From: Allorhizobium pseudoryzae
GTDB lineage: Bacteria > Pseudomonadota > Alphaproteobacteria > Rhizobiales > Rhizobiaceae
Length of the DNA: 64,000 nucleotides
Direction: 5' to 3'
Assembly: GCF_011046245.1 (NCBI RefSeq)
Contig: NZ_CP049241.1
Location: 2,682,001-2,746,000, forward strand
Shown: in pieces, positions 4,947-15,859 of the stretch
Numbering within the stretch: the stretch's first letter is position 1
Layout of the letters: each line of letters begins with the position of its first letter
Made by a program: the position numbers and the translations under genes
The notes under the pieces: model-generated
Database searches by the model: none
Told to the model about the DNA's origin: nothing
The model's input: only the letters and a program-made list of their open reading frames with translations

Positions 4947-5561
4947 CTAGGCCCGACGATACTTTTCGATGAAGGCGTCGATCGTAAGCCCGCGGATGTC
5001 GGGAAGTGCGTGGCTCAGCGCCTCGTGTGACCAGTCCCACCAGGCGATTGCCAACAGGGCTTCGGCCTCAGCCTCGGTGAAGCGCCGCTTGATGAACTTG
5101 GCCGGAACGCCGCCGACGATGGTGTAGGGTTCGACATCCCTGGAGACGACCGCGCCGGCGCCGATCACCGCCCCCGTGCCGATCGTCACGCCGGCGAGCA
5201 CCGTGACGCCATGGCCGATCCACACATCGTGGCCGATGGTCACCCAGTGATCCTTGCGCCATTGGAAGAAGTCGGCGTCATCCTCGCCCAGACCATACTG
5301 CTGGGCGCGGTAGGTGAAATGGTGCTGGCTGGCGCGCCAGGTGGCGTGATTGCCCGGATTGATCCGCGCGCCTTCGGCGATCGAGCAGAACTTGCCGATC
5401 GTCGACCAGACGACATTGCCGCCCTTGACGATATAGGAATAGTCGCCGAACTGGCTGTCGCGCATCGTCACATGCGCCTGGATCTCCGTCCAGCGGCCGA
5501 GATCGCAACCGATGACGCTGGCGGTTTCATGGATGGTCGGCTCTTCGCGGAGCATCTTCAT
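4947..5561 (-). CDS. Hexapeptide-repeat acetyltransferase of phosphonate clusters
   Basis: A 204-residue left-handed beta-helix acyltransferase. Isoleucine-patch repeats run through [33 protein letters not shown] and [15 protein letters not shown], like xenobiotic/chloramphenicol acetyltransferases (CatB type). The ATG at 5561 overlaps the stop of phnE2 as ATGA, so it is the last gene of the phnCDE transport operon. A transferase of this kind is a recurrent member of phosphonate loci (TIGR03308-like). Acetylation of an aminophosphonate is a reasonable guess by analogy with PhnO, which is unrelated in fold, but is not shown. Confidence 0.85.
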
Positions 5562-6421
5562 CGTGTGGTCCCCATGGTGCCGATGAAACGGGTGCGGATG
5601 ACGGCGGACAGGGCATCGATCACGTAGACCATCACGATGATCAAAAGGATGATCGACCAGGCCTCGTCCCAGCGGTAGGCGCCGATGCGGTCGGAGAGCA
5701 GGAAGCCGATGCCGCCGGCGCCGACGATGCCGAGAATGGTGCCGGAGCGAACGTTGGATTCGAAATTGTAGAGCGTGATCGACAGAAGCACCGGCATGAC
5801 CTGCGGCATCATGGCGAAACGGATCGCCTGCAGGCGAGAGCCGCCGGATGCGACCACCCCTTCCACCGGCTTGTTGGAAATGTTCTCGATGGCTTCGGCG
5901 TAGAGTTTCGCCAGCACGCCGACCTCGCTGACGGCAATCGCCATGACACCGGCGAGTGGCCCGAGCCCGAAGGCGCGGATGAAGACCAGCGCCAGGATCA
6001 GCGTTTCGAAGGCGCGGATGATATCGAAGCCGCGGCGCACGCCGAACCGCAGCAGCGCCAACCGGTTGATCGTCTTGGCGCCCAGGAAGGACTGCGGGAA
6101 GGCTGCGATGGCACCGAGGACGGTGCCGAGGAAAGCCATGGAAAGCGTCTCGCCCAAGCCCTCCAGGATCGCGGCGATTTCGTCCCATTCGGTCCAGACA
6201 TGCGGCGGCAACATGAAGGACAGCACGCGGCCCAGTCGTGCCAGTCCGTTGACGATGCGCTCCGGCGAAAAGCCGAAGTCGTAGAGGCACCAGGCAAACA
6301 GCGCGGCAAAGCAAGCGAACAGCGCCCATCGGCGCAGCCGAACGGCGAGCGGTTGGCGGAATGCCTGCGGCATCCTTTGACGCCAGTCGGCAATTTCAAT
6401 GGGAGAGATCGTGGTCTGCAT
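5558..6421 (-). CDS. phnE2: Phosphonate ABC transporter permease PhnE (second copy)
   Basis: A 287-residue inner-membrane permease starting [13 protein letters not shown] at ATG 6421, 2 bp after the phnE1 stop, with AAGGACC as ribosome binding site. The EAA loop reads [16 protein letters not shown] and is followed by further hydrophobic segments. It pairs with PhnE1 to form the channel for phosphonates delivered by PhnD. Upstream in-frame sequence to 6697 lies inside phnE1 and is a shadow. Confidence 0.92.
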
Positions 6422-6423
6422 CG

Positions 6424-7350
6424 TCAGGTCCTTTCCAGGCCGATCAGCCTGTGGCGCAGCTTTTCCGAGCCCCAGTCGATGACGAAGACCGAAACGAAGA
6501 TGATGATGAAGAGCGCCGAGAGATCGGTGTATTCCTGCAGCGAGACGGCTGTGCGCAGTTCTTGGCCAAGACCGCCGGCGCCGACATAGCCGATGATCGA
6601 GGAGGAGCGCACATTGATCTCGAAGCGCAGCAGCGTGTAGCTGATGATGTTCGGCAGCACTTGTGGCACCGCGCCATAGCGGATCTGGTCCGCCCAACTG
6701 CCCCCGGAAGACTTGACGCCCTCCAGCGGCCGCATGTCGAGGTTCTCGTTGGCCTCCGAATACAGCTTGCCGAGCGAGCCGCAGGTGTGAAGCGCAATGG
6801 CCAGCACTCCGGCCATCGGGCCGACCCCGAAACAGAAAACGAAGATCAGCGCGAAGACGAGTTCCGGAACGGTCCGGGCAATCTCGAGACAGCGCCGGGT
6901 GATCGTCAGCACCCAGCGGTTGGGCGACAGGTTGCGCGAGGCCGGAAACGACAGCAGGAAGCCGCCCGCAACACCGAGCACCGTCGCCATGAAGGCGATG
7001 AGAACCGTCTCCAGCAGCAGCCAGGTCCAGATCTTCCAGCGCCAGAACCAGGTCGCAAGGTCACTGCCGAGCGTCCCCCAGGATAGAGCTGGAATGGTCT
7101 TGGCCAGATATTCCCCCAGACGCGGCAGGCCGGCGAGCAGGATCCAGCGTTCGGCGCGCGAGCCATCCGCAGCGGTGACCTGTGTCACCTTGAAGAAGTT
7201 GGCGAAATCGGCCGTCATCAGGAAAAGTGTGACAAACACCATCGCCACCAGCGCGATCCGCAGTCGTGCGCGATTGCGGTGGGCGGCAAACGCGCGTTCA
7301 AAATCAGCGATGGCGGATGACGTCGGAGGATCGGCAAAAGCGGCTGTCAT
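6424..7350 (-). CDS. phnE1: Phosphonate ABC transporter permease PhnE (first copy)
   Basis: About 308 residues. A long first hydrophobic helix (LRIALVAMVFVTLFLMTADF) is followed by a periplasmic-looking loop and the permease core with EAA-like loop EGVKSSGGSWADQIRYG. The in-frame ATG at 7389 lies inside an inverted repeat downstream of phnD, so MTAAFADP at 7350 is preferred; its ribosome binding site is weak. It sits between phnD and phnE2. Paired phnE genes are usual in rhizobial phosphonate importers. Confidence 0.9.
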   Translation of the reverse strand: MTAAFADPPTSSAIADFERAFAAHRNRARLRIALVAMVFVTLFLMTADFANFFKVTQVTAADGSRAERWILLAGLPRLGEYLAKTIPALSWGTLGSDLATWFWRWKIWTWLLLETVLIAFMATVLGVAGGFLLSFPASRNLSPNRWVLTITRRCLEIARTVPELVFALIFVFCFGVGPMAGVLAIALHTCGSLGKLYSEANENLDMRPLEGVKSSGGSWADQIRYGAVPQVLPNIISYTLLRFEINVRSSSIIGYVGAGGLGQELRTAVSLQEYTDLSALFIIIFVSVFVIDWGSEKLRHRLIGLERT

Positions 7351-7377
7351 GGCTGCGGTGTCCCAGGAAAAAGGAGA

Positions 7378-7400
7378 GGGCAGGCGCATCGCACCTGCCC
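7378..7400 (-). terminator. Intercistronic hairpin after phnD
   Basis: On the transcribed strand GGGCAGG and CCTGCCC pair across a 9-nt loop, followed by a pyrimidine run TCTCCTTTTTCC. It lies between the binding-protein gene and the first permease gene, where partial termination or 3'-end protection would raise PhnD output over the permeases. That role is inferred. Confidence 0.5.
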
Positions 7401-7410
7401 TTGGGTCTGG

Positions 7411-8313
7411 TCAGCTCTTGCGCTGGGCCTTCAGCCAGGCGCGCATGTCGACGATCCACTGGTACCGGTCGTGGTTGACATCGACATAGCCCTTGGCGGT
7501 GGAGCTTTCCGCGCCGCTCATTTCCTTGAAGGCCGCCGGATCGGCGGTCGGCACGTTCTTCACGGCGTCCTTCATGGCGCTGATCAGTTCCGGCGGCAGG
7601 TTCTTGCGCGCGGTGAAGGGGCCGGAGGTGATTTCGGGCGATTTCCAGATCCAGCAGATTTCGCCGGCCTTGATCATGCCCTTGGAGACCATGCGCTGCG
7701 GAATGCCGCTCTTTTCGTTGTTGATATAGGTCGCGGCGGCATCGAACTGGCCGTTCACCACGCCCTGCACGCCTGCCTCATGACTGCCAGAGAAGGGGAT
7801 GGCGGAGAAGTAGGTCGCGGGCTCAAAGCCCTGCTTCACCAGGTTATAGTTCGGAACCGCGTAGCCGCTGGTGGAATCCGGATCGGCAAAGGCCAGAACC
7901 TTGCCCTTCAGGTCTTCGATCTTCTTGTAGGGGCTGTCGCAGCGCACGGCGACAATCGAATAGTAACCGGTCGAACCGTCTTCCTGCTGGGCCGTCAACA
8001 GCGGTTCGACGCCGCCCTTGGTTTCGGTATAGGCCGCGGCATAGGCGGACGAACCGAGGAAGGCGAATTCGATCTGGTTTGCGGCCAGCGCCTGGATGAC
8101 GCCGTCATAGCTGCCGGCAGTGAAGATCTCGACATCGACGCCGAGCGTGCGCTTCAGATAATCCTTGAACGGCTGATAGCGGGCGAGACGGTCCTTTTCG
8201 TTCTCGGCCGAAGTAATGCCGAAACGAACGACCTTGTAGTCGGTCTTCCAGTCGGCGGCCATCGCGGGGACGGATACGAGGGCGAGAAGCGCGGTCGCGG
8301 CAAGAAATCGCAT
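7411..8313 (-). CDS. phnD: Phosphonate-binding periplasmic protein PhnD
   Basis: A 300-residue exported binding protein. A signal peptide ends at VPAMA-AD (about residue 20), followed by VVRFGITSAENEKDRLARYQ, the N-terminal strand typical of PhnD-type proteins. The phosphonate pocket region appears as FLGSSAYAAAY and DPDSTSGYAVP. It captures phosphonates and hands them to PhnE1/E2. It follows phnC by 24 bp in the phnCDE operon. The specific phosphonate bound is unknown. Confidence 0.93.
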   Translation of the reverse strand: MRFLAATALLALVSVPAMAADWKTDYKVVRFGITSAENEKDRLARYQPFKDYLKRTLGVDVEIFTAGSYDGVIQALAANQIEFAFLGSSAYAAAYTETKGGVEPLLTAQQEDGSTGYYSIVAVRCDSPYKKIEDLKGKVLAFADPDSTSGYAVPNYNLVKQGFEPATYFSAIPFSGSHEAGVQGVVNGQFDAAATYINNEKSGIPQRMVSKGMIKAGEICWIWKSPEITSGPFTARKNLPPELISAMKDAVKNVPTADPAAFKEMSGAESSTAKGYVDVNHDRYQWIVDMRAWLKAQRKS

Positions 8314-8337: not shown

Positions 8338-9144
8338 TCAGGCGTGAACCGCCGGGCGGATCGCCGTCGACGTCACGGATTCATTGAATTCACTGAGATC
8401 GTCGCTGCCATAGATGTCGCGCACGACATCGCCGGTGAGCTGGTGGGCGCCGCCGTCGAAGATGACGCGACCGGCGCGCATGCCGATGATGCGGTCGCAA
8501 TAGGCCCGCGCCGTATCCAGCGTGTGCAGGTTGACGAGTACGGTGATGCCGTCCTCGTTGTTGATCGACCGCAGCGCATCCATGACGCGGGTTGCATTGC
8601 CGGGGTCGAGGCTGGCGATCGGTTCGTCGGCCAGGAGAATGCGAGGGTTCTGGACGAGCGCGCGGGCAATCGCCACACGTTGCTGCTGCCCGCCGGAGAG
8701 CGTGCCGGCCTTTTGGAGCGCCTGGGGCGCGAGGTCCAGGCGATCCAGCGCCCGGATCGCCAGCGCCCGCTCCGCATCGGTGAAGCGCATGGCCATCGAG
8801 CTCGCAAAGCCATGCGCGGCAAGCCGGCCGACCAGCACGTTGGTCAGGACATCCAGGCGGTCGATGAGGTTGAACTGCTGAAAGATCATCGCGCACTGGC
8901 GCCGCCACTCACGCAACGACCGCCCCTTCAGCGCCGTGATCTCCTGGCCCCCGAAGGTGATGCGGCCATCGGTCGGTTCGACCAGCCGGTTCACCAGCCT
9001 CAGCAGGGTGGATTTGCCCGCACCGGAGCGGCCGATGATCCCGACGAATTCGCCGGGACCGATGTCGAGGCTGACGCCGTCCACCGCGCGGGTGGATCCG
9101 AAGCTGCGGCCAAGGCCGCTTAAGGTGAGATTGTGCTTTTCCAT
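8338..9144 (-). CDS. phnC: Phosphonate ABC transporter ATP-binding protein PhnC
   Basis: A 268-residue ATPase with Walker [10 protein letters not shown] near 39-47, [15 protein letters not shown] and Walker B ILLADEP, matching PhnC. The start MEKHNLTL (ATG 9144) is chosen over an in-frame upstream start at 9174. The upstream region carries a PHO-box-like repeat and the TCATTCGAATGA palindrome, so this is the first gene of the phnCDE1E2-acetyltransferase operon. Confidence 0.93.
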
Positions 9145-9180
9145 GGGGCCAATCCTGGCCCTCGTCTGTGACACGCCGAT

Positions 9181-9195
9181 ATCATTCGAATGAAT
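9181..9195. promoter_or_regulatory. PhnF-operator-like palindrome before phnC
   Basis: The 12-bp perfect palindrome TCATTCGAATGA (9182-9193) lies 38 bp upstream of the phnC start. The same 12-mer is the core of an 18-bp palindrome 12 bp upstream of phnF. Its presence at both phn promoters makes it the likely binding site of the GntR-type repressor PhnF; the assignment is inferred. Confidence 0.7.
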
Positions 9196-9343: not shown

Positions 9344-10513
9344 TCACGCCGCGCGGCGGCGGGTGATCGATCCATCGGAATAGATCTTGCCGCCGTTGCG
9401 GAGCGTCGCGCGGACATGGCCGATCCCGCTGTCGTCGGCGATGACGAAATCCGCCTGCTTGCCGAGCGCGATCTCGCCGCGATCGGAAAGGCCGAGTGCC
9501 TTTGCGGGGTTGTGCGTCGCAAGGCGTGTCGCACCCGCCAGGCCCAACGGATCGGTTTTGGCCAGTTCCAGGATCGCCGGCAGGATGGCGGACGGATGAT
9601 AGTCCGACGCGAGAATGTCGAGCACACCCTCGGCATGGGCTTCCCGCGCGGAAAGATTGCCGGAATAGGACTGGCCGCGAAGCGCATTCGGCGCGCCCAT
9701 GGCCGTCGCAAGCCCGCGGTTTCTTGCTTCCTGTGCGGCTTCGAGCGTCACCGGAAACTCGCTGATCGCGGCGCCGAGATCCTGCATCAGCGCTACCTTT
9801 GCCGGCGTGTCATCGTCATGGCTCGCGAGCGCCACGCCGTGCGCACGGCAGGTGGCGGAAATTGCATTCAGCGTCTGCGCCATGATCTCGGCCGGCTGGC
9901 TGCGTTCCTCGATGCGCTTGGCGACCGACTGTGCAGCCTCGTCACGGCTCAGGCCCCTTTCGCGCACCATCTTGTCGACATGCCGCTCGATATCGCGGTA
10001 CTGCCCCTGGCCCGGCGTATGGTCCGTCAGCGAGATCAGGTCCACCGCCCCTTCGGCGATGAGCGCCTCGATGACGCTGAGCGCCTTTGGAAAGGTGATC
10101 TCGAAGCGGGCGTGGACGCGGTGATCGACGAGCAATTGTGGTCCCATGGATTTCAGCGCCCGGATGATGGCGCTGGTGTGCTCGTAGCTGCGCAGATGGC
10201 CATAGGTGGAAGAGGGGCTGAAGGACACGGCCGCGTAGGCCGTCGTGATGCCGGCCACGGCCAGCCGCCGGTCGAGGTCGCGCAGGCCGAGTTCGAGCGG
10301 CATCGGCACGTTCGGCCGCGGTTCCACCTCGCGCTCCACCATGTCGCCGTGCATATCGACGAAACCGGGCAGCAGCAGAAGACCGTCGCCCGAGAGTTCG
10401 GCACCCACCACCGGCGTATCGGCAATCTCCGCGATTGTGCCGGCTTCGATCCGGACGGAGCCGCGCTCGATGACGCGGTCTGGCAATACGACGCGAAAAT
10501 CAGAAATCCACAT
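9344..10513 (-). CDS. phnM: PhnM, alpha-D-ribose 1-methylphosphonate 5-triphosphate diphosphatase
   Basis: A 389-residue amidohydrolase-fold enzyme. The metal site motif PGFVDMHGDMVEREVEPRP (His55, Asp57) and later ASHDDDTPAK and DYHPSAILPA are typical of PhnM. It removes pyrophosphate from the triphosphate intermediate to give the substrate of C-P lyase. Its ATG at 10513 overlaps the end of phnL by 14 nt. It is the last gene before an intrinsic terminator. No phnN or phnP was found nearby, so the later steps are encoded elsewhere or differ. Confidence 0.92.
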   Translation of the reverse strand: MWISDFRVVLPDRVIERGSVRIEAGTIAEIADTPVVGAELSGDGLLLLPGFVDMHGDMVEREVEPRPNVPMPLELGLRDLDRRLAVAGITTAYAAVSFSPSSTYGHLRSYEHTSAIIRALKSMGPQLLVDHRVHARFEITFPKALSVIEALIAEGAVDLISLTDHTPGQGQYRDIERHVDKMVRERGLSRDEAAQSVAKRIEERSQPAEIMAQTLNAISATCRAHGVALASHDDDTPAKVALMQDLGAAISEFPVTLEAAQEARNRGLATAMGAPNALRGQSYSGNLSAREAHAEGVLDILASDYHPSAILPAILELAKTDPLGLAGATRLATHNPAKALGLSDRGEIALGKQADFVIADDSGIGHVRATLRNGGKIYSDGSITRRRAA

Positions 10514-11207
10514 GGCCGTCTATCTCCTCGGCTTTCAGTTCGATGTCGCGGTCGACGAGGCCTGCCACGTCGCCGGGGTGATGGAAGACGCCGATCATGG
10601 CAACGCCTTGTTCCTTGAGGCTTTCCAGCCGGCGCACAAGGGCGGCGCGGGCATGGACGTCGAGCGAAGCGGTCGGCTCATCCAGCAGCAGCAGGCGTTG
10701 CGGCAGGATCAAGGCCCGCGCCAGATTGACCTTCTGCTGCTCACCGCCGGAAAAGGTGGTGGGGTAGGCGCGCCAGAGATCGCGCTTGACGCCGAATTCC
10801 TCCAGCCAGCGGCGGGCCTCGACTAGTGCATCCGCATGCGAAACACCTGCTTGGCGCAGCGGTTCCGCAACGATCTCTTCTGCCGCCACCCGTGGGCGGG
10901 CAATCAGGAACTGTGTGACGAAGCCGATCTCCCGACGTCGGAGCAGGGCGATATCCACATCGGCGGCGCGGGCGAGATCGATCCGGCCCTCTGCCGTATG
11001 GTACCAGACATGGCCGGCCCGCGGCAGGTAGCTGCGATATAGCGTGCGCAGCAGCGTCGATTTGCCGACGCCGTTTGCCCCTTTGAGGAGCAGGAATTCC
11101 CCTGCATGGAGCGTGAAGCCGATGCCGGAAAAGGCATGCAGGCGCTGCTCCAGATGGTGCATGTGAAAGGTCTTGGCGAGACCTTCGACGTGAAGAACGG
11201 GCTGCAT
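10500..11207 (-). CDS. phnL: PhnL, C-P lyase system ATP-binding protein
   Basis: A 235-residue ABC-type ATPase with Walker A GANGVGKST at 43-51, FSGGEQQKVNLARAL and LLLDEPTASLD. PhnL takes part with PhnG, PhnH and PhnI in transferring the phosphonate onto the ribose of a nucleoside triphosphate. The start MQPVLHVEGL (ATG 11207) lies 7 bp after the phnK stop; the in-frame extension to 11252 overlaps phnK and is less likely. Order and spacing match phnKLM operons. Confidence 0.92.
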   Translation of the reverse strand: MQPVLHVEGLAKTFHMHHLEQRLHAFSGIGFTLHAGEFLLLKGANGVGKSTLLRTLYRSYLPRAGHVWYHTAEGRIDLARAADVDIALLRRREIGFVTQFLIARPRVAAEEIVAEPLRQAGVSHADALVEARRWLEEFGVKRDLWRAYPTTFSGGEQQKVNLARALILPQRLLLLDEPTASLDVHARAALVRRLESLKEQGVAMIGVFHHPGDVAGLVDRDIELKAEEIDGHVDF

Positions 11208-11214
11208 CACAACC

Positions 11215-12042
11215 TCACAGTTTCGCGTGGACGAGTTGCTGGGTATAGGCATGCTGCGGATCCTGAAAAATCTGGTCGACCAGCCCTTCCTCCACCACCA
11301 GACCGCGGCGCATGACCATAACCCGGTCCGCCATCGTTCGTATGACGCCGAGATCGTGGCTGACGATCACCATGGTGATCGCCCGGTCGCGCTGCAGCCG
11401 TTTCAGGGTGTCGAGCACCAGCGCCTGGACGCTGACGTCGAGACCCGTCGTCGGCTCGTCGAGCAGCAACAGTGCCGGCTCCAGCGCAATCGCCTTGGCA
11501 AGCTGCACACGCTGCTGCATGCCGCCGGACAATTCCGTAGGCCTTGCGTCCATCCGGGCAAGCGGGAATTCCGAGGCATCAAGAGCGTCACGCGCCCTTT
11601 CCCTCAGTGCCTCGAAACTGCGCTCGCCGGCAATCAGCAGCCGTTCGGCCACATTGCCGGAACTCGTGTGGTTCATCAGCAGGCCGAGATGCGGGTTCTG
11701 GTAGACGATGCCGATCCGGCGGGCGCAGAGCATGCGGCGTTCGAAACGGTCGAGATCAAAGAGGTTGCCGCCGAGCCCGGGAAGATCGAGCCTGTAGTCG
11801 CCGGCATCCGGGCTATCTTCCAGGTTCATCATTCTGAGCAGCGTGGATTTTCCCGAACCGCTTTCGCCGACGATGCCGAGCACCTCGCCCGGATAGACCC
11901 TGGCCGCGACATCCTGCAGTGCCACGACGTCGCCGTAGCGTTTGCTGATGCCGGTCATCGAGAGAAGCGGCGGTGTCGTCATCAATTGCGGCGGCAGTTG
12001 CTGCAGGGCGGCCGCCGTGATGTGTGTCTGCTGGAGCGTCAT
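11215..12042 (-). CDS. phnK: PhnK, C-P lyase system ATP-binding protein
   Basis: A 275-residue ABC-type ATPase with [24 protein letters not shown] and LLLDEPTTGLDVSVQ, close in type to the oligopeptide-transporter ATPases that PhnK resembles. In E. coli PhnK binds the PhnGHIJ core through PhnJ. The ATG at 12042 overlaps the phnJ stop as ATGA; a second possible start is MTTPPLL 20 codons later. The PhnJ partner here has an unusual C-terminus, which makes the PhnK contact surface worth comparing. Confidence 0.92.
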   Translation of the reverse strand: MTLQQTHITAAALQQLPPQLMTTPPLLSMTGISKRYGDVVALQDVAARVYPGEVLGIVGESGSGKSTLLRMMNLEDSPDAGDYRLDLPGLGGNLFDLDRFERRMLCARRIGIVYQNPHLGLLMNHTSSGNVAERLLIAGERSFEALRERARDALDASEFPLARMDARPTELSGGMQQRVQLAKAIALEPALLLLDEPTTGLDVSVQALVLDTLKRLQRDRAITMVIVSHDLGVIRTMADRVMVMRRGLVVEEGLVDQIFQDPQHAYTQQLVHAKL

Positions 12043-12953
12043 GGGGTGAGTGTCCCGTTCTTGTACCAGGTATCGCCGATGGCCACCGTCTCGCCTTCGC
12101 TGCGGCGGATTGCCTTGACGCCGAACTGGCTGTCGGAGAGTTCATGCGTCGAAGTTCCGTCGTCCTGCGGGATCTCGTTCATGAAGTATCCCGTCACGCC
12201 GGAGCGGTGGCAGCTGAGGCCGGCATGGTCTTCCACCTTGTAGGGCACGTCGGAGAAGACCAGCGGCTCCACGCGGGTGAAGGGGGGCACGGCGAACAGC
12301 CGCTTCTCGCGTCCGGCGGAGAGAAAGGTCAGGTGCCGCGCCATGTGGAGCTTCGGCACGTCCCAGCGCGGGATCGGCGAGGGTGTCATCACATGCCGGC
12401 CATTGACCAGCGCCGGATAGGCGGCGCCCTGCATGATGCGGCCCGAGCGGACGATCTGTTCGTACAGCGTCAGCCACAGCCGGCTGTAGTCGGCATCCGC
12501 GTGCATTTCCCGGGCGATCGACATGTTGGGCTCGACCGGGCGCAGCGGTTCCGGATTGGGAACCTGCAGCACCAGGATCTGGTCATCCTTCAGCGTCTCC
12601 TCCGGAATGCGGTGTCGGCTCTGGAGAATGGAGGCCTCCAGCGTATCCATGGTTTCCGAGGCGCCGGAGACACGCGACAGGAAACGGCGGATGGAGGCGG
12701 CATTCACGCCGTCATCGGCACCCTGGTCGATGACCTTGATCGAGGCGGATGGCTTGATCAAGGTCAGGGTGACCTGCAATCCGCCGGTTCCCCAGCCGCG
12801 GGCAATCGGCACTTCGCGGCTGGCATAGGGCATCTGGCAGCCGGGAACGGCAATGGCCTTCAGCATCTTGCGACGCATCTCGCGCTTGGCGGACGCATCA
12901 AGGAAACCGTAGCTGAAGGCTTCCCAGGGTTTGGTGAGGGACGAGAGGCTCAT
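12039..12953 (-). CDS. phnJ: PhnJ homologue lacking the usual iron-sulphur cysteines
   Basis: A 304-residue protein that follows E. coli PhnJ closely through most of its length: VIDQGADD, LQSRHRIPEETL, QVPNPEPLRPVEP, SPIPRWDVPK, GAGREKR-like SAGREKRLFAVPPFTRVE. Gly38 in AVPGCQMP matches the glycyl-radical Gly32. Family knowledge places four cysteines near the C-terminus (CX2CX21CX5C; Cys241, 244, 266, 272 in E. coli) for the 4Fe-4S cluster and thiyl radical. Here that region reads LSCHRSGVTGYFMNEIPQDD and then ELSDSQFGVKAIRR. Only Cys39 and Cys248 exist in the whole protein. No other frame in the region supplies the motif. It is translationally coupled to phnI and phnK (ATGA overlaps). Whether it is a catalytic C-P lyase, a variant with other chemistry, or degenerate is open. 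Confidence 0.85.
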   Translation of the reverse strand: MSLSSLTKPWEAFSYGFLDASAKREMRRKMLKAIAVPGCQMPYASREVPIARGWGTGGLQVTLTLIKPSASIKVIDQGADDGVNAASIRRFLSRVSGASETMDTLEASILQSRHRIPEETLKDDQILVLQVPNPEPLRPVEPNMSIAREMHADADYSRLWLTLYEQIVRSGRIMQGAAYPALVNGRHVMTPSPIPRWDVPKLHMARHLTFLSAGREKRLFAVPPFTRVEPLVFSDVPYKVEDHAGLSCHRSGVTGYFMNEIPQDDGTSTHELSDSQFGVKAIRRSEGETVAIGDTWYKNGTLTP

Positions 12954-14032
12954 GCCGGTTCCTCCTGGCGCTGGAGCACGGCAGGTGCTGCCGGTGCGGC
13001 CTGCTTGGCTTTTGCGTCCCGCAGCGCGTCCAACGAGGACTGGAAGGTCACGTAATGCGGCAACTTGAAGTGGATGCAGAAGCCGGAGGCCTCGACGGGT
13101 TCGGTGTGGTAGAGGAAGAACTCTTCGTTGACAGCTGAGTTCTTCGGTGCCCCCGGCGCGTTGAGATCGAGCGTTGCGCCGGCAATCACCTTCACCTCGT
13201 TCCAGCCGAGCGTGGCGCAGAAGCCGAGGTCGAGCTTGCCGGACTTGCCCTTGTTGGTGACTTCAGCCTGGGAAACTTTGACACGACCGCCGGAGAAAAT
13301 CGTTCCACGCGGGTGGCGCACCTTGAGCTCCGCCTCGGCAAGACGCAATTCGTTGACGGTCGGATGGGCGTTGCCATACCCGCGCATCGCCGAATAACCG
13401 AGCGCCAGCACGCCGCCGGTATCGGCACGCGCGAGGCTTTGCAGCGTGTGCGCCCGTTTGGCGGGGAAGAGCAGCGGTTCGCGTGTCAGGTCCGGAATGT
13501 CGTCCGGGGCAACGGGCGCGGCAGGAACATCGGCTACCAGTCCGACGGACTTCTGCCAGGCAGCAAGTGACGGCTGACGGGCCGGCGCGGGGCGGGCCGC
13601 CGGTTCCACCGGGGTTGGAACGAATGGCTGGCCCTCCAGCACGCCGGTTGCCAGCAGGCGGTGCGAATAGTCAAGCGTGGGCCCCAGGATCTGTCCGCCC
13701 GGAATATCCTTGAAGGCGGCGGAGATGCGCCGCACCGTGAACAGGTCCTCCTGTCTCACCGGCTCCGCGATCGCAAGGCGCGGCTGGGTGGTGCGCCAGG
13801 CGCGCAGCAGAAGGACGGCTTCGTAGAGGTCGCCACCGGACTGCGCCAGCGCCAGCGCCGCCAGATCCGGCTCATACAGCGAGGCTTCGCCCATCACCCG
13901 GTCGATCAGCCAGGGCAGCGACTGGCGGATCGCCGTCACGCGCTGTGCGTCGATCTCGCCGAGATCGGCCCGGTAAAGCCTCTCGGACTGGTCTATGGCG
14001 CGTTCGCCGCCACGGGTTGCCACATAGGCCAT
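12950..14032 (-). CDS. phnI: PhnI, C-P lyase core subunit (nucleosidase/ribosyl-phosphonate formation)
   Basis: A 360-residue protein with PhnI hallmarks: DRVMGEASLYEPDLAALAL, RRISAAFKDIPGGQILGPT, DYSHRLLATG and the C-terminal HFKLPHYVTFQ, whose two histidines match the zinc-site histidines known at the PhnI-PhnJ interface. A Pro/Ala-rich linker around residues 140-190 is longer than in E. coli. The ATG at 14032 overlaps the phnH stop as TGATG; an in-frame GTG at 14035 precedes it. In E. coli PhnI cleaves adenine from ATP and, with PhnGHL, forms ribose 1-phosphonate 5-triphosphate. Confidence 0.92.
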   Translation of the reverse strand: MAYVATRGGERAIDQSERLYRADLGEIDAQRVTAIRQSLPWLIDRVMGEASLYEPDLAALALAQSGGDLYEAVLLLRAWRTTQPRLAIAEPVRQEDLFTVRRISAAFKDIPGGQILGPTLDYSHRLLATGVLEGQPFVPTPVEPAARPAPARQPSLAAWQKSVGLVADVPAAPVAPDDIPDLTREPLLFPAKRAHTLQSLARADTGGVLALGYSAMRGYGNAHPTVNELRLAEAELKVRHPRGTIFSGGRVKVSQAEVTNKGKSGKLDLGFCATLGWNEVKVIAGATLDLNAPGAPKNSAVNEEFFLYHTEPVEASGFCIHFKLPHYVTFQSSLDALRDAKAKQAAPAAPAVLQRQEEPA

Positions 14033-14601
14033 CACAGCACCTCAATCATTGTGGATCGCGGCAGGCCGAGCACTTGGTCGCCGTCGATCAGGAAGAGTTC
14101 GAAGCCGGTCGGATACAGGCAGCGGTCGCTCCGGATCGCCCAGACATCGTCCGGGATGCCTCCGATCCGGATCTCCACTTTGCCGTCGATGCCGGGACCC
14201 GACAGGCGAAGACCGCGACCGTGGCCAATCGTGGCTGAGGCAAAAACGGTTGCCCCTTCGTCCGGATACAGGTGGGAGCCTGTCGGCACATCGTCGAGAG
14301 CGGCAAGGCCGGCAGGTGTATCGAGCGCGAGGAAGGCGTGATCTGCCTGCGCCGCCGATGCGAGGCAGGCGCCGGTTGCGGCGATCCTTTCGGCAAGACC
14401 GGCATCGCTCGCAAAAACCCGGCATTCCCGGTCCACAAGGGCTTCTGCAACGGCAAAAGGATCGTTTTCCGGCAGCTGCCGGATGGTGCCTGGCCGCGCG
14501 AGCGCCCACATCAGCGCGTCATAGGTGGCGTTTGCGCGTGTCTCTGCGGCATTGCGAACCGGCACGACAGGGGCCGAGCGTTGGTTGAGGCTTTGGGTCA
14601 C
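14032..14601 (-). CDS. phnH: PhnH, C-P lyase core subunit
   Basis: A 189-residue protein with ANATYDALMWALARPGTI, the conserved N-terminal region of PhnH, then HLYPDEGATVF and LSGPGIDGK and a C-terminal YPTGFELFLIDG. PhnH is a dimeric scaffold subunit of the PhnGHIJ complex, with a fold related to PLP transferases but no cofactor. It is 2 bp from phnG and overlaps phnI, consistent with stoichiometric synthesis. Confidence 0.92.
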   Translation of the reverse strand: MTQSLNQRSAPVVPVRNAAETRANATYDALMWALARPGTIRQLPENDPFAVAEALVDRECRVFASDAGLAERIAATGACLASAAQADHAFLALDTPAGLAALDDVPTGSHLYPDEGATVFASATIGHGRGLRLSGPGIDGKVEIRIGGIPDDVWAIRSDRCLYPTGFELFLIDGDQVLGLPRSTMIEVL

Positions 14602-14603
14602 GA

Positions 14604-15062
14604 TCAGAAGGTCTCCATCTCGACGCGCGTCGCCTCGACGGCACGCAGACGCTCTTCGTCTGCTGCCCGAATGCGCGTGGCTTGCGTCGCAATGAAATGG
14701 CCGAGACGCTCTTCGTCCGTTCCCGCCATCGCGGCGGCGTCGATCACGGCCATGGCCATGGCGCGCTCGAGATCGCGGCCGATCACCATGCCGTAGCCTT
14801 CGATCGGCCTATCCTTCAGGCGGATATGCGCTTCTGCGACAAGCACCTCACCCAGATGAAAATCGGTGGAGGCAACGGTGTCGCGCAGGGGGAGCATGAC
14901 GAGGCCGGTGCGGCTTTGAACCACCTCGATCTCGCCGAGGAGGGGAAGCACACCCTCTGCAAAACCCTTCAGCAGGCCATCATCGGCCCGCGCCAGAGTA
15001 TTCAAGAGATGGGCATGGGGAGGCATTCCGGCGCTGATGACGCCGGTCATTTCATCACTCAT
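14604..15062 (-). CDS. phnG: PhnG, C-P lyase core subunit
   Basis: A 152-residue protein, the usual PhnG size. It shows the order QSRTGLVMLPLRDTVA, FHLGEVLVAEAHIRL and GYGMVIGRDLERAMAMAVID, matching the family's ETGLVQ ... FFAGDATLTRAAVRL ... GRDKQHAERCALIDAL pattern. It is the first structural gene of the C-P lyase operon, 24 bp behind phnF. It functions only within the PhnGHIJ complex in the cytoplasm. Confidence 0.9.
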   Translation of the reverse strand: MSDEMTGVISAGMPPHAHLLNTLARADDGLLKGFAEGVLPLLGEIEVVQSRTGLVMLPLRDTVASTDFHLGEVLVAEAHIRLKDRPIEGYGMVIGRDLERAMAMAVIDAAAMAGTDEERLGHFIATQATRIRAADEERLRAVEATRVEMETF

Positions 15063-15086: not shown

Positions 15087-15830
15087 CTAGCCTTGGGAGG
15101 AGGGGGAGGGATCGGGGTCGTCGAGGGTATCAATACTGAACTGCACGCGGTCTCCGGCCCAGACGGCTTCCGAATAGCCGATTGCCCGCCCGTCGGCGGT
15201 CACGTCGGTCTTGGTCAGCACCATGACGGGATGATCGACATGCTGGCTGAGCAGTCGCGCCTCGTCCGGTTCCGGCCGCCGCGTGAAGATGGTCGTGCGT
15301 TTGCGGAAATAGTCCGTGATGCCGTGGTCGCGGTAGATTTCGGTGACGGAGGTGCCCGTTGCGCGCCGGGCGCCGAGATCCGGAAAGAGTGCCGCTTCGT
15401 GGAAGGCCATGCCGAGATTGATCGGCACGCCATCGGCAAAACTGCGGCGCAGGATGCGGTGAACGAGCGTTTCTTCGGCGAGGCCAAGCGCCTGCGCCAC
15501 CCGTGCCGGGGCCGGGATGATTTTCGCCGAGAGATGCTCGCCGGTCGGCGCTATGCCCTGCTCCAGAAGGTTTTGCCGAAACCGCGTGCGCCGCCCGATC
15601 TGGTAGGTGATGAGCGGCGCGGCCTCGACAAAGGTGCCGCGGCCCTGTTCGACCCTGAGCTTGCCCTCGACCGCCAGCGCCGAAACCGCGCGCCGCACCG
15701 AGTGGCGCCCTGCGCCGAATGCGGCGCAGAGTTCCGGCTCCGTCGGCAGGCGCGCGCCGGGCGCAAGCTTGCCCGAGGCGATATCGCCGGCGAGGCGGTC
15801 TCTGATGATCTGCCAACTGTCTCTTTGCAT
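15087..15830 (-). CDS. phnF: PhnF, GntR/HutC-family repressor of phosphonate genes
   Basis: A 247-residue regulator: an N-terminal winged helix with RLAGDIASGKLAPGARLPTE and RHSVRRAVSALAVEGKLRVE, then a UTRA-type ligand domain. The start MQRDSWQ (ATG 15830) leaves the 18-bp palindrome at 15842-15859 just upstream as an untranslated operator; longer frames to 15947 would run through it. It heads the phnFGHIJKLM unit, so it probably represses itself and, through the matching palindrome, phnC. Confidence 0.9.
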   Translation of the reverse strand: MQRDSWQIIRDRLAGDIASGKLAPGARLPTEPELCAAFGAGRHSVRRAVSALAVEGKLRVEQGRGTFVEAAPLITYQIGRRTRFRQNLLEQGIAPTGEHLSAKIIPAPARVAQALGLAEETLVHRILRRSFADGVPINLGMAFHEAALFPDLGARRATGTSVTEIYRDHGITDYFRKRTTIFTRRPEPDEARLLSQHVDHPVMVLTKTDVTADGRAIGYSEAVWAGDRVQFSIDTLDDPDPSPSSQG

Positions 15831-15841
15831 GCACGTCGTCC

Positions 15842-15859
15842 GATTCATTCGAATGAATC
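15842..15859. promoter_or_regulatory. 18-bp palindromic operator before phnF
   Basis: GATTCATTCGAATGAATC is a perfect 18-bp palindrome 12 bp upstream of the phnF start. Its central TCATTCGAATGA recurs upstream of phnC. Position and repetition fit autoregulation by PhnF. Confidence 0.75.

Follow-up and report, generated by a model that had tools for sequence, protein, structure and literature searches.

A PhnJ lineage of carbon–phosphorus lyase operons that has lost the cysteines of the [4Fe-4S] cluster and kept the residues of the zinc site

A stretch of 64,000 nucleotides from Allorhizobium pseudoryzae (contig NZ_CP049241.1, positions 2,682,001 to 2,746,000; hereafter the window) contains on its minus strand a complete operon for carbon–phosphorus (C–P) lyase, in the order phnF-G-H-I-J-K-L-M and then phnC-D-E1-E2 and a transferase gene (Table 1). 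The phnJ gene, here called phnJ2, encodes a member of the PF06007 family (cut-off 25 bits; profile positions 2–271 of 275 matched) that has only two cysteines, Cys39 and Cys248. PhnJ cleaves the P–C bond by means of S-adenosylmethionine (SAM), Gly32, and Cys272 (E. coli numbering; role of Cys272 according to PMC11978286). In the alignment, the E. coli residues Cys241, Cys244, Cys266, and Cys272 corresponded to Cys, Ser, Leu, and Gly of the window protein; the CX2CX21CX5C motif of the [4Fe-4S] cluster was absent, and the thiyl-forming Cys272 was replaced by Gly278. An initial annotation of the window had described a PhnJ that lacks the cluster cysteines, contains only Cys39 and Cys248, and keeps the radical glycine as Gly38, and each of these details proved correct.

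An alignment of PF06007 sequences contained 236 distinct PhnJ proteins, 82 with all four cysteines (J1) and 154 with at most one (J2), with nothing intermediate; the number of J2 sequences is no census, being drawn from the best 120 of 7312 protein matches and the best 80 of 585 relatives, and one fragment at a contig end (L152) was left out of the counts. As the two types were defined by the cysteine motif itself, a tree built without the C-terminal cysteine domain (quick search, midpoint root) served as an independent test. This tree reproduced the split, with the 154 J2 sequences on one side of a single branch, and thereby supported the proposal of the initial annotation that the window protein belongs to a separate PhnJ lineage. 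Position 272 of the J2 proteins was occupied by Gly (134), Ala (8), Met (4), Val (4), Ile (2), Trp (1), or Arg (1); none of the 154 had Cys at positions 244, 266, or 272, and the first Cys of the motif was the most that any retained. The glycyl-radical position, judged by the residue only, was Gly in 154/154 J2 and in 82/82 other PhnJ proteins. The adjacent Cys39 was present in 133 J2 proteins and gone in 21, and two J2 proteins (loci L026 and L029) contained no Cys at all, so that no PhnJ Cys can be essential across the J2 lineage. Two residues of the C-terminal domain, Glu271 and Lys280, were invariant in J2 and not in J1. By family and operon J2 is a C–P lyase; by two defining features of PhnJ, neither of which was found, it is not the known enzyme.

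The structure predicted for the window PhnJ had predicted local distance difference test (pLDDT) values of 91–96 over residues 241–300; this prediction used a 76-row alignment and replaced an earlier one with J2-only input, which had given a pLDDT of 58.5. The median ratio of nonsynonymous to synonymous substitution rates (dN/dS) was 0.13 for the PhnJ core and 0.27 for the C-terminal domain, consistent with purifying selection, although these ratios are rough, as the 186 pairs were picked for a synonymous difference (pS) of 0.05–0.66 in the core, most being 0.4–0.65. Sequencing error or a frameshift was ruled out by the colinear domain, the pLDDT values, and a change common to 154 distinct sequences, in agreement with the initial annotation, which had regarded the domain as diverged and not frameshifted. 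Cysteines at shifted positions, a possibility raised in the same annotation, did not appear in the alignment of the PhnJ set and were likewise ruled out. The loss of the known catalytic residues could also mark a decaying or artefactual gene, as had been suggested; this explanation has next to no probability and was dismissed in view of the open frames in several phyla, the 154 distinct sequences, the conserved C-terminal letters of J2's own, the median dN/dS well below 1, and the intact operon and operator (see below).

Structural analyses of the E. coli complex place Zn2+ between PhnI and PhnJ, bound by PhnI His328 and His333 and, in the open state, His219; a ligand at this site, found though the protein was made without phosphonates, was modelled as 5-phosphoribosyl-1,2-cyclic phosphate and contacts PhnJ Arg107, His108, Gln124, and the loop 47–50 (PMC9947105). 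The same text gives the distance from Gly32 as 30 Å for the Fe-S site and 31 Å for the interface Zn site. In our set, PhnJ Arg107, His108, Gln124, Gly47, Gly49, and Thr50 (E. coli numbering) were invariant in 236/236 sequences, and position 48 was Trp in 154/154 J2 and Trp or Phe in J1. His224, His322, and His327 of the window PhnI aligned with E. coli His219, His328, and His333, and these three residues were kept in all distinct PhnI proteins, 80/80 of the J1 type and 40/40 of the J2 type; these counts exclude L152 and duplicate genes, whereas the alignment of motif residues had 45 J2 rows, including the L152 PhnI and some duplicates. The J2 lineage has thus lost the cluster site and kept the Zn site.

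A further Cys of PhnI, Cys320, lies two residues before the Zn ligand His322 and was present in 38/40 distinct J2-type and 3/80 J1-type proteins; the partner PhnJ proteins of these three are near J2 in the tree, and the residue is gone in both Thermus sequences. A catalytic Cys moved to PhnJ Cys39 or PhnI Cys320 was considered and set aside as a lead only, since these residues are common but not universal in J2.

Table 1. Features of the C–P lyase operon in the window (positions in the window; bits are profile scores)
Feature	Positions	Strand	Remarks
phnJ2, PhnJ-family protein without [4Fe-4S]/thiyl cysteines	12039..12953	(-)	304 aa; PF06007 381.2 bits, residues 12-280
phnJ2 C-terminal domain, residues 242-304	12042..12230	(-)	C248 12210-12212, S251 12201-12203, L272 12138-12140, G278 12120-12122
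Gly38 codon (E. coli glycyl-radical Gly32)	12840..12842	(-)	
phnI	12950..14035	(-)	PF05861 348 bits; aligned to 4xb6_C
phnH	14032..14601	(-)	PF05845; TIGR03292 102.2 bits, cut-off 91.5
phnG	14604..15062	(-)	PF06754; TIGR03293 86.2 bits, under cut-off 89
phnF, GntR/UTRA regulator	15087..15830	(-)	TIGR02325 184.3 bits, cut-off 156.8; start set at ATG 15830
phnK, ATP-binding cassette (ABC) ATPase	11215..12042	(-)	Best NCBIfam match TIGR02323 218.3 bits, under cut-off 302.85
phnL, ABC ATPase	10500..11252	(-)	Best NCBIfam match TIGR02324 234.3 bits, under cut-off 256.3
phnM, triphosphate diphosphatase	9344..10513	(-)	NF011988 547.5 bits, cut-off 369; TIGR02318 432.4, cut-off 390.55
phnC, transporter ATPase	8338..9174	(-)	Open reading frame (ORF) recurring in J2 loci; named from position and similarity
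phnD, binding protein	7411..8313	(-)	TIGR03431 289.9 bits, cut-off 261.1
phnE1, permease	6424..7389	(-)	ORF recurring in J2 loci; named from position
phnE2, permease	5558..6697 (start approximate)	(-)	ORF recurring in J2 loci; named from position
Hexapeptide-repeat transferase of phosphonate operons	4947..5561	(-)	TIGR03308 288.9 bits, cut-off 201.65
PhnF operator candidate ATTCATTCGAATGAAT, ahead of phnF-GHIJKLM	15843..15858		Perfect palindrome, recurring at this place in many J2 loci
Second operator candidate TATCATTCGAATGAAT, ahead of phnC	9180..9195		Matching sites ahead of phnC in J2 loci

The gene order of the window recurred in most of the J2 loci listed, except at contig ends and for genes missed by simple ORF picking. 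PhnK Lys65, Asp195-Glu196, and His229 and PhnL Lys64 and Asp191-Glu192, which we take to be the Walker A/B and H-loop residues, were among the shared invariants in the alignment, and the motif residues of PhnM were also kept. J2 genes, most of them in complete phn operons, were found in Alphaproteobacteria, Chloroflexota, Thermus plasmids, and one metagenome-assembled genome (MAG) labelled Bacteroidetes. Within the window's family, PhnJ was present in 299 of 393 genomes and J2 in 7 among the matches listed, which were ordered by E-value with J2 at the top; five of the seven (G778, G751, G1007, G1018, and G907) were typed by 72–82% identity only. Nine other members of the window's genus among the matches listed had one J1-like match each. 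A class-wide draw of 389 genomes included 77 with PhnJ and 2 with J2. In the class of genome G022 (298 genomes), 10 genomes had a match, of which 9 were J2-like, one of these with an additional untypable fragment, and the tenth was weak at 27% identity. The patchy occurrence of J2, together with its plasmid copies, suggests horizontal transfer.

The window's genome also contains a four-cysteine phnJ on contig C4, the second, cysteine-bearing copy for which the initial annotation had proposed a search. Its cluster (L156) resembles that of the window in combining phnF, G, H, I, J, K, and L and a hexapeptide transferase gene, and differs from it in the four cysteines of PhnJ. The GTDB J2 loci came from 29 genomes, 20 with another PhnJ of lower identity and 9 without. 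The other PhnJ had four cysteines in 19 of the 20, comprising 18 fetched copies and that of G029 (locus L038), and G013 had fragments only. On the L038 MAG contig, the J2 cluster and the four-cysteine phnJ cluster were about 8 kb apart (1874-2791 and 10694-12067). The nine genomes with J2 only were Haematobacter massiliensis CCUG 47968, two alphaproteobacterial MAGs, and six MAGs labelled Anaerolineae (4), Bacteroidetes (1), or unassigned (1); for Thermus, the PhnJ search covered the plasmid record only. Because MAGs may be incomplete, a better J2-only case is G739, a genome of the window's family that is 99% complete in 4 contigs and in which J2 is the only PF06007 match.

In the canonical route, PhnI with PhnG, PhnH, and PhnL replaces adenine on the ribose by the phosphonate, PhnM splits off pyrophosphate, and PhnN finally produces phosphoribosyl pyrophosphate (PRPP). 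In G739, phnF-G-H-I-J2-K-L and phnC-D-E-DUF1045-phnM-phnN run in opposite directions, and the palindrome ATTCATTCGAATGAAT separates them; DUF1045 scored 228.2 against the TIGR03223 cut-off of 248.95, and PhnN 182.6 against 156. Hydrolysis of the cyclic ribose phosphate from C–P lyase has been proposed as a role of DUF1045 (PMC8235418). Genes for DUF1045 and PhnN also followed the J2 phnM on a Mesorhizobium J2 plasmid, and both were present in Phyllobacterium (L020). As DUF1045 and PhnN are retained although the genome has no other PhnJ, the system most likely still makes the cyclic product, and the presence of PhnM, DUF1045, and PhnN in the cluster of the J2-only G739 argues for a working system. 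The PhnM beside the J2 core of G739 (L176, L179) fitted NF011983 best, and that of the window NF011988, as if accessory genes from another operon type served the J2 core. No PhnP (TIGR03307) match reached the cut-off among the 14 genomes or records tested, of which the window's genome was one; weak matches occurred in 12 of them and also in most control genomes, and the test was therefore undiscriminating. A TIGR00282-type metallophosphoesterase gene followed the J2 operon of Thermus thermophilus HB8 plasmid pVV8 (L153 10869-15840; 188.9 bits, under the cut-off of 254.15), and its product might hydrolyse the cyclic product. The phosphonatase PhnX was encoded after the J2 operon in two of the three Chloroflexota/Bacteroidetes loci tested (L024 and L027, not L029), and a TIGR03364 oxidoreductase in L024; from these genes we infer aminoethylphosphonate-type phosphonates and their oxidised forms as substrates.

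A palindromic operator candidate was found directly ahead of phnF, and a variant ahead of phnC in many J2 loci. At up to 3 mismatches, there were 43 matches in 684,267 bases of J2 loci and 2 in 922,743 bases of J1 loci, a contrast that is not to be read as a probability, because the pattern was selected on J2 loci and these loci are akin to each other, with an overlap between two. The matches lay in 23 of the 36 J2 loci, all alphaproteobacterial; at this threshold none was found in L020, L022, L038, L169/L175, six loci of the Chloroflexota/Bacteroidetes type, or two Thermus loci. The window's genome had three copies at up to 2 mismatches: one ahead of phnF, one ahead of phnC, and one on contig C4 (781579-781594) with the same 16-mer as the phnC copy. 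About 350 bases past the C4 copy are dppD-F-B-C, GDPD, dppA, a metallophosphoesterase gene, and a PF01663 phosphodiesterase gene (locus L174 947-9466). In Mesorhizobium AR07 and Phyllobacterium KW56 (L175, L020), the J2 operon was flanked by Dpp genes and a PF01663 relative, and Dpp-type genes were also near J2 in L022 (Dpp only), L005, and the window. Dpp transporters are common; still, this link hints at a phosphodiester or phosphonate ester, imported intact, as the source of the natural substrate. No match to the Pho-box consensus was found at the J2 promoters of the window; the normal operon of the same genome had a Pho-box-like site with 2 mismatches before phnG, which is no more than expected by chance.

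The reading we prefer, with a probability of roughly 0.48, is that J2 is a distinct, functional C–P lyase core lineage without the radical-SAM half of PhnJ, that is, a cluster-free variant that would do without the [4Fe-4S]/thiyl route of PhnJ and probably cleaves at the Zn site. A substrate R-PO3 would be joined by PhnI/G/H/L to C1 of the ribose from ATP, and the triphosphate trimmed by PhnM. R would then be expelled at the interface Zn2+ site through attack of the ribose 2'-OH on phosphorus, giving 5-phosphoribosyl-1,2-cyclic phosphate, the same product, which DUF1045 or another phosphodiesterase and then PhnN could convert to PRPP. Such a polar cleavage would need a better leaving group than a plain alkyl, supplied either by an activated phosphonate, whose carbanion is stabilised, or by a phosphoryl compound linked through O or N; the phosphonate genes around J2 make us favour the former. 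If this reading is right, a plain alkylphosphonate such as methylphosphonate cannot be a substrate. Tentatively, one may go further and picture C–P lyase as two separable engines, J2 being a C–P (or P–X) lyase that would run on the Zn/His site only, by an RNase-like 2'-OH attack without iron-sulphur, SAM, or a radical.

Several points weigh against cluster-free cleavage at the Zn site. Gly32 was kept in 154/154 J2 proteins and would be needless in a purely non-radical enzyme unless it is structural. A polar P–C cleavage is not plausible chemistry for an unactivated phosphonate, and a special substrate is therefore required. Another PhnJ was held by 20 of the 23 alphaproteobacterial J2 genomes, all 20 such genomes being alphaproteobacterial. 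The C-terminal domain evolves at about twice the rate of the core and reaches a ratio of 0.97 in a few of the most distant, saturated pairs, and the J2-linked phosphodiesterase and Dpp-transporter genes could indicate phosphodiesters instead of phosphonates. Finally, the activity, substrate, and cyclic product of J2 are predictions.

J2 could instead be a non-catalytic structural subunit of a complex that only ribosylates its substrate through PhnI/G/H/L and PhnM, for detoxification, storage, or hand-over to a different enzyme that cleaves C–P bonds, such as PhnX or the normal C–P lyase encoded elsewhere in the genome. Such a role would agree with the loss of the catalytic cysteines, with another PhnJ in 20/29 J2 genomes (four-cysteine where typable), and with PhnX beside J2 in L024 and L027. 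We nevertheless consider it unlikely: the PhnJ ligand-contact residues tested remain invariant, and J2-only G739 keeps DUF1045 and PhnN, which would be of no use to a cell that made neither cyclic ribose phosphate nor ribose bisphosphate. The initial annotation had offered other chemistry, a non-catalytic subunit, and decay for its unusual PhnJ; with the separate lineage supported and decay dismissed, the first two are not separable at the sequence level. An alternative of distinctly low probability is that the substrate is a phosphate ester or phosphodiester and has no C–P bond, the RNase-like 2'-OH attack on a ribosyl phosphodiester expelling an alcohol. From general chemistry this reaction is easy without a radical, and it would suit the third operator copy before the Dpp/GDPD/metallophosphoesterase/PF01663 operon and the Dpp genes and PF01663 relative flanking J2 in L175 and L020 (L022, Dpp only). 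However, phosphatases do the same without the cost of ATP, the Dpp link occurs in few loci and concerns a common type of transporter, and the genes conserved around J2 are those of phosphonate use, to which PhnX in L024 and L027 and the TIGR03364 oxidoreductase in L024 can be added.

A radical supplied in trans is similarly improbable. Here the Gly38 radical would be installed by a second protein, as it is in pyruvate formate-lyase, either the normal PhnJ or another radical-SAM activase. The thiyl would form on a residue other than Cys272, for example PhnJ Cys39 or PhnI Cys320. The Gly in 154/154 J2 proteins, the adjacent Cys in 133/154, and the enrichment of PhnI Cys320 (38/40 of the J2 type against 3/80 others) would be explained, but Cys39 is gone in 21/154, PhnI Cys320 in both Thermus, and any Cys in two J2 proteins, and some J2 genomes have no other PhnJ. 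TIGR02494, the sole activase model tried, exceeded its cut-off in three of the 14 genomes or records covered, all three being J2-only MAGs (G022, G024, and G026); it had no match in the window's genome and was below the cut-off in G739 and G012. With no lineage-wide PhnJ Cys and the tested activase family absent or weak in the window's genome, G739, and G012, it is unlikely that the lineage as a whole uses a radical supplied in trans, though the three MAGs do have such an activase.

Compared with E. coli Phn(GHIJKL) (PDB 4xb6, 7z15-7z19; PMC9947105), J2 lacks both CX2CX21CX5C and Cys272. Its C-terminus is longer than that of E. coli PhnJ and has a TWY..G stretch besides the J2-invariant Glu271 and Lys280, and the window PhnK and PhnL are below the cut-offs of the NCBIfam equivalog models. 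The pVV8 system is of the J2 type, with Cys, Thr, Val, and Met at the four positions and, like the window, GHIJKLM with CDE; unlike the window, it has a LacI-type regulator at its head, no operator match, and Ala for PhnI Cys320. No report of a cysteine-less PhnJ was found in the literature searched, supplements and most subscription journals lying outside its scope. Two major PhnJ clades are mentioned in PMC11978286, in which the four cysteines were checked in that study's own proteins.

Where and how C–P lyase breaks its bond is an open question, as the cluster and Zn sites of the E. coli complex are each about 30 Å from the radical glycine (PMC9947105). A lineage in which the cluster is lost and the Zn site kept is a natural separation of both sites and makes the question testable, also in growable bacteria such as Thermus. 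If the cluster-free reading is true, J2 would be a probably oxygen-insensitive member of the C–P lyases, and the interface Zn site a true active site. Public annotation names J2 proteins 'alpha-D-ribose 1-methylphosphonate 5-phosphate C-P-lyase PhnJ', and phnJ surveys for methane estimates may therefore include genes unable to release methane by the known route; a clade-level check of the cysteines would correct such surveys.

In two loci (L012 13634-18944 and L006), a second cluster in the opposite direction adjoined J2 and contained PhnD/C/E-like and PhnM-like genes, with methyltransferase-like and TIM-barrel proteins also encoded in that of L012.

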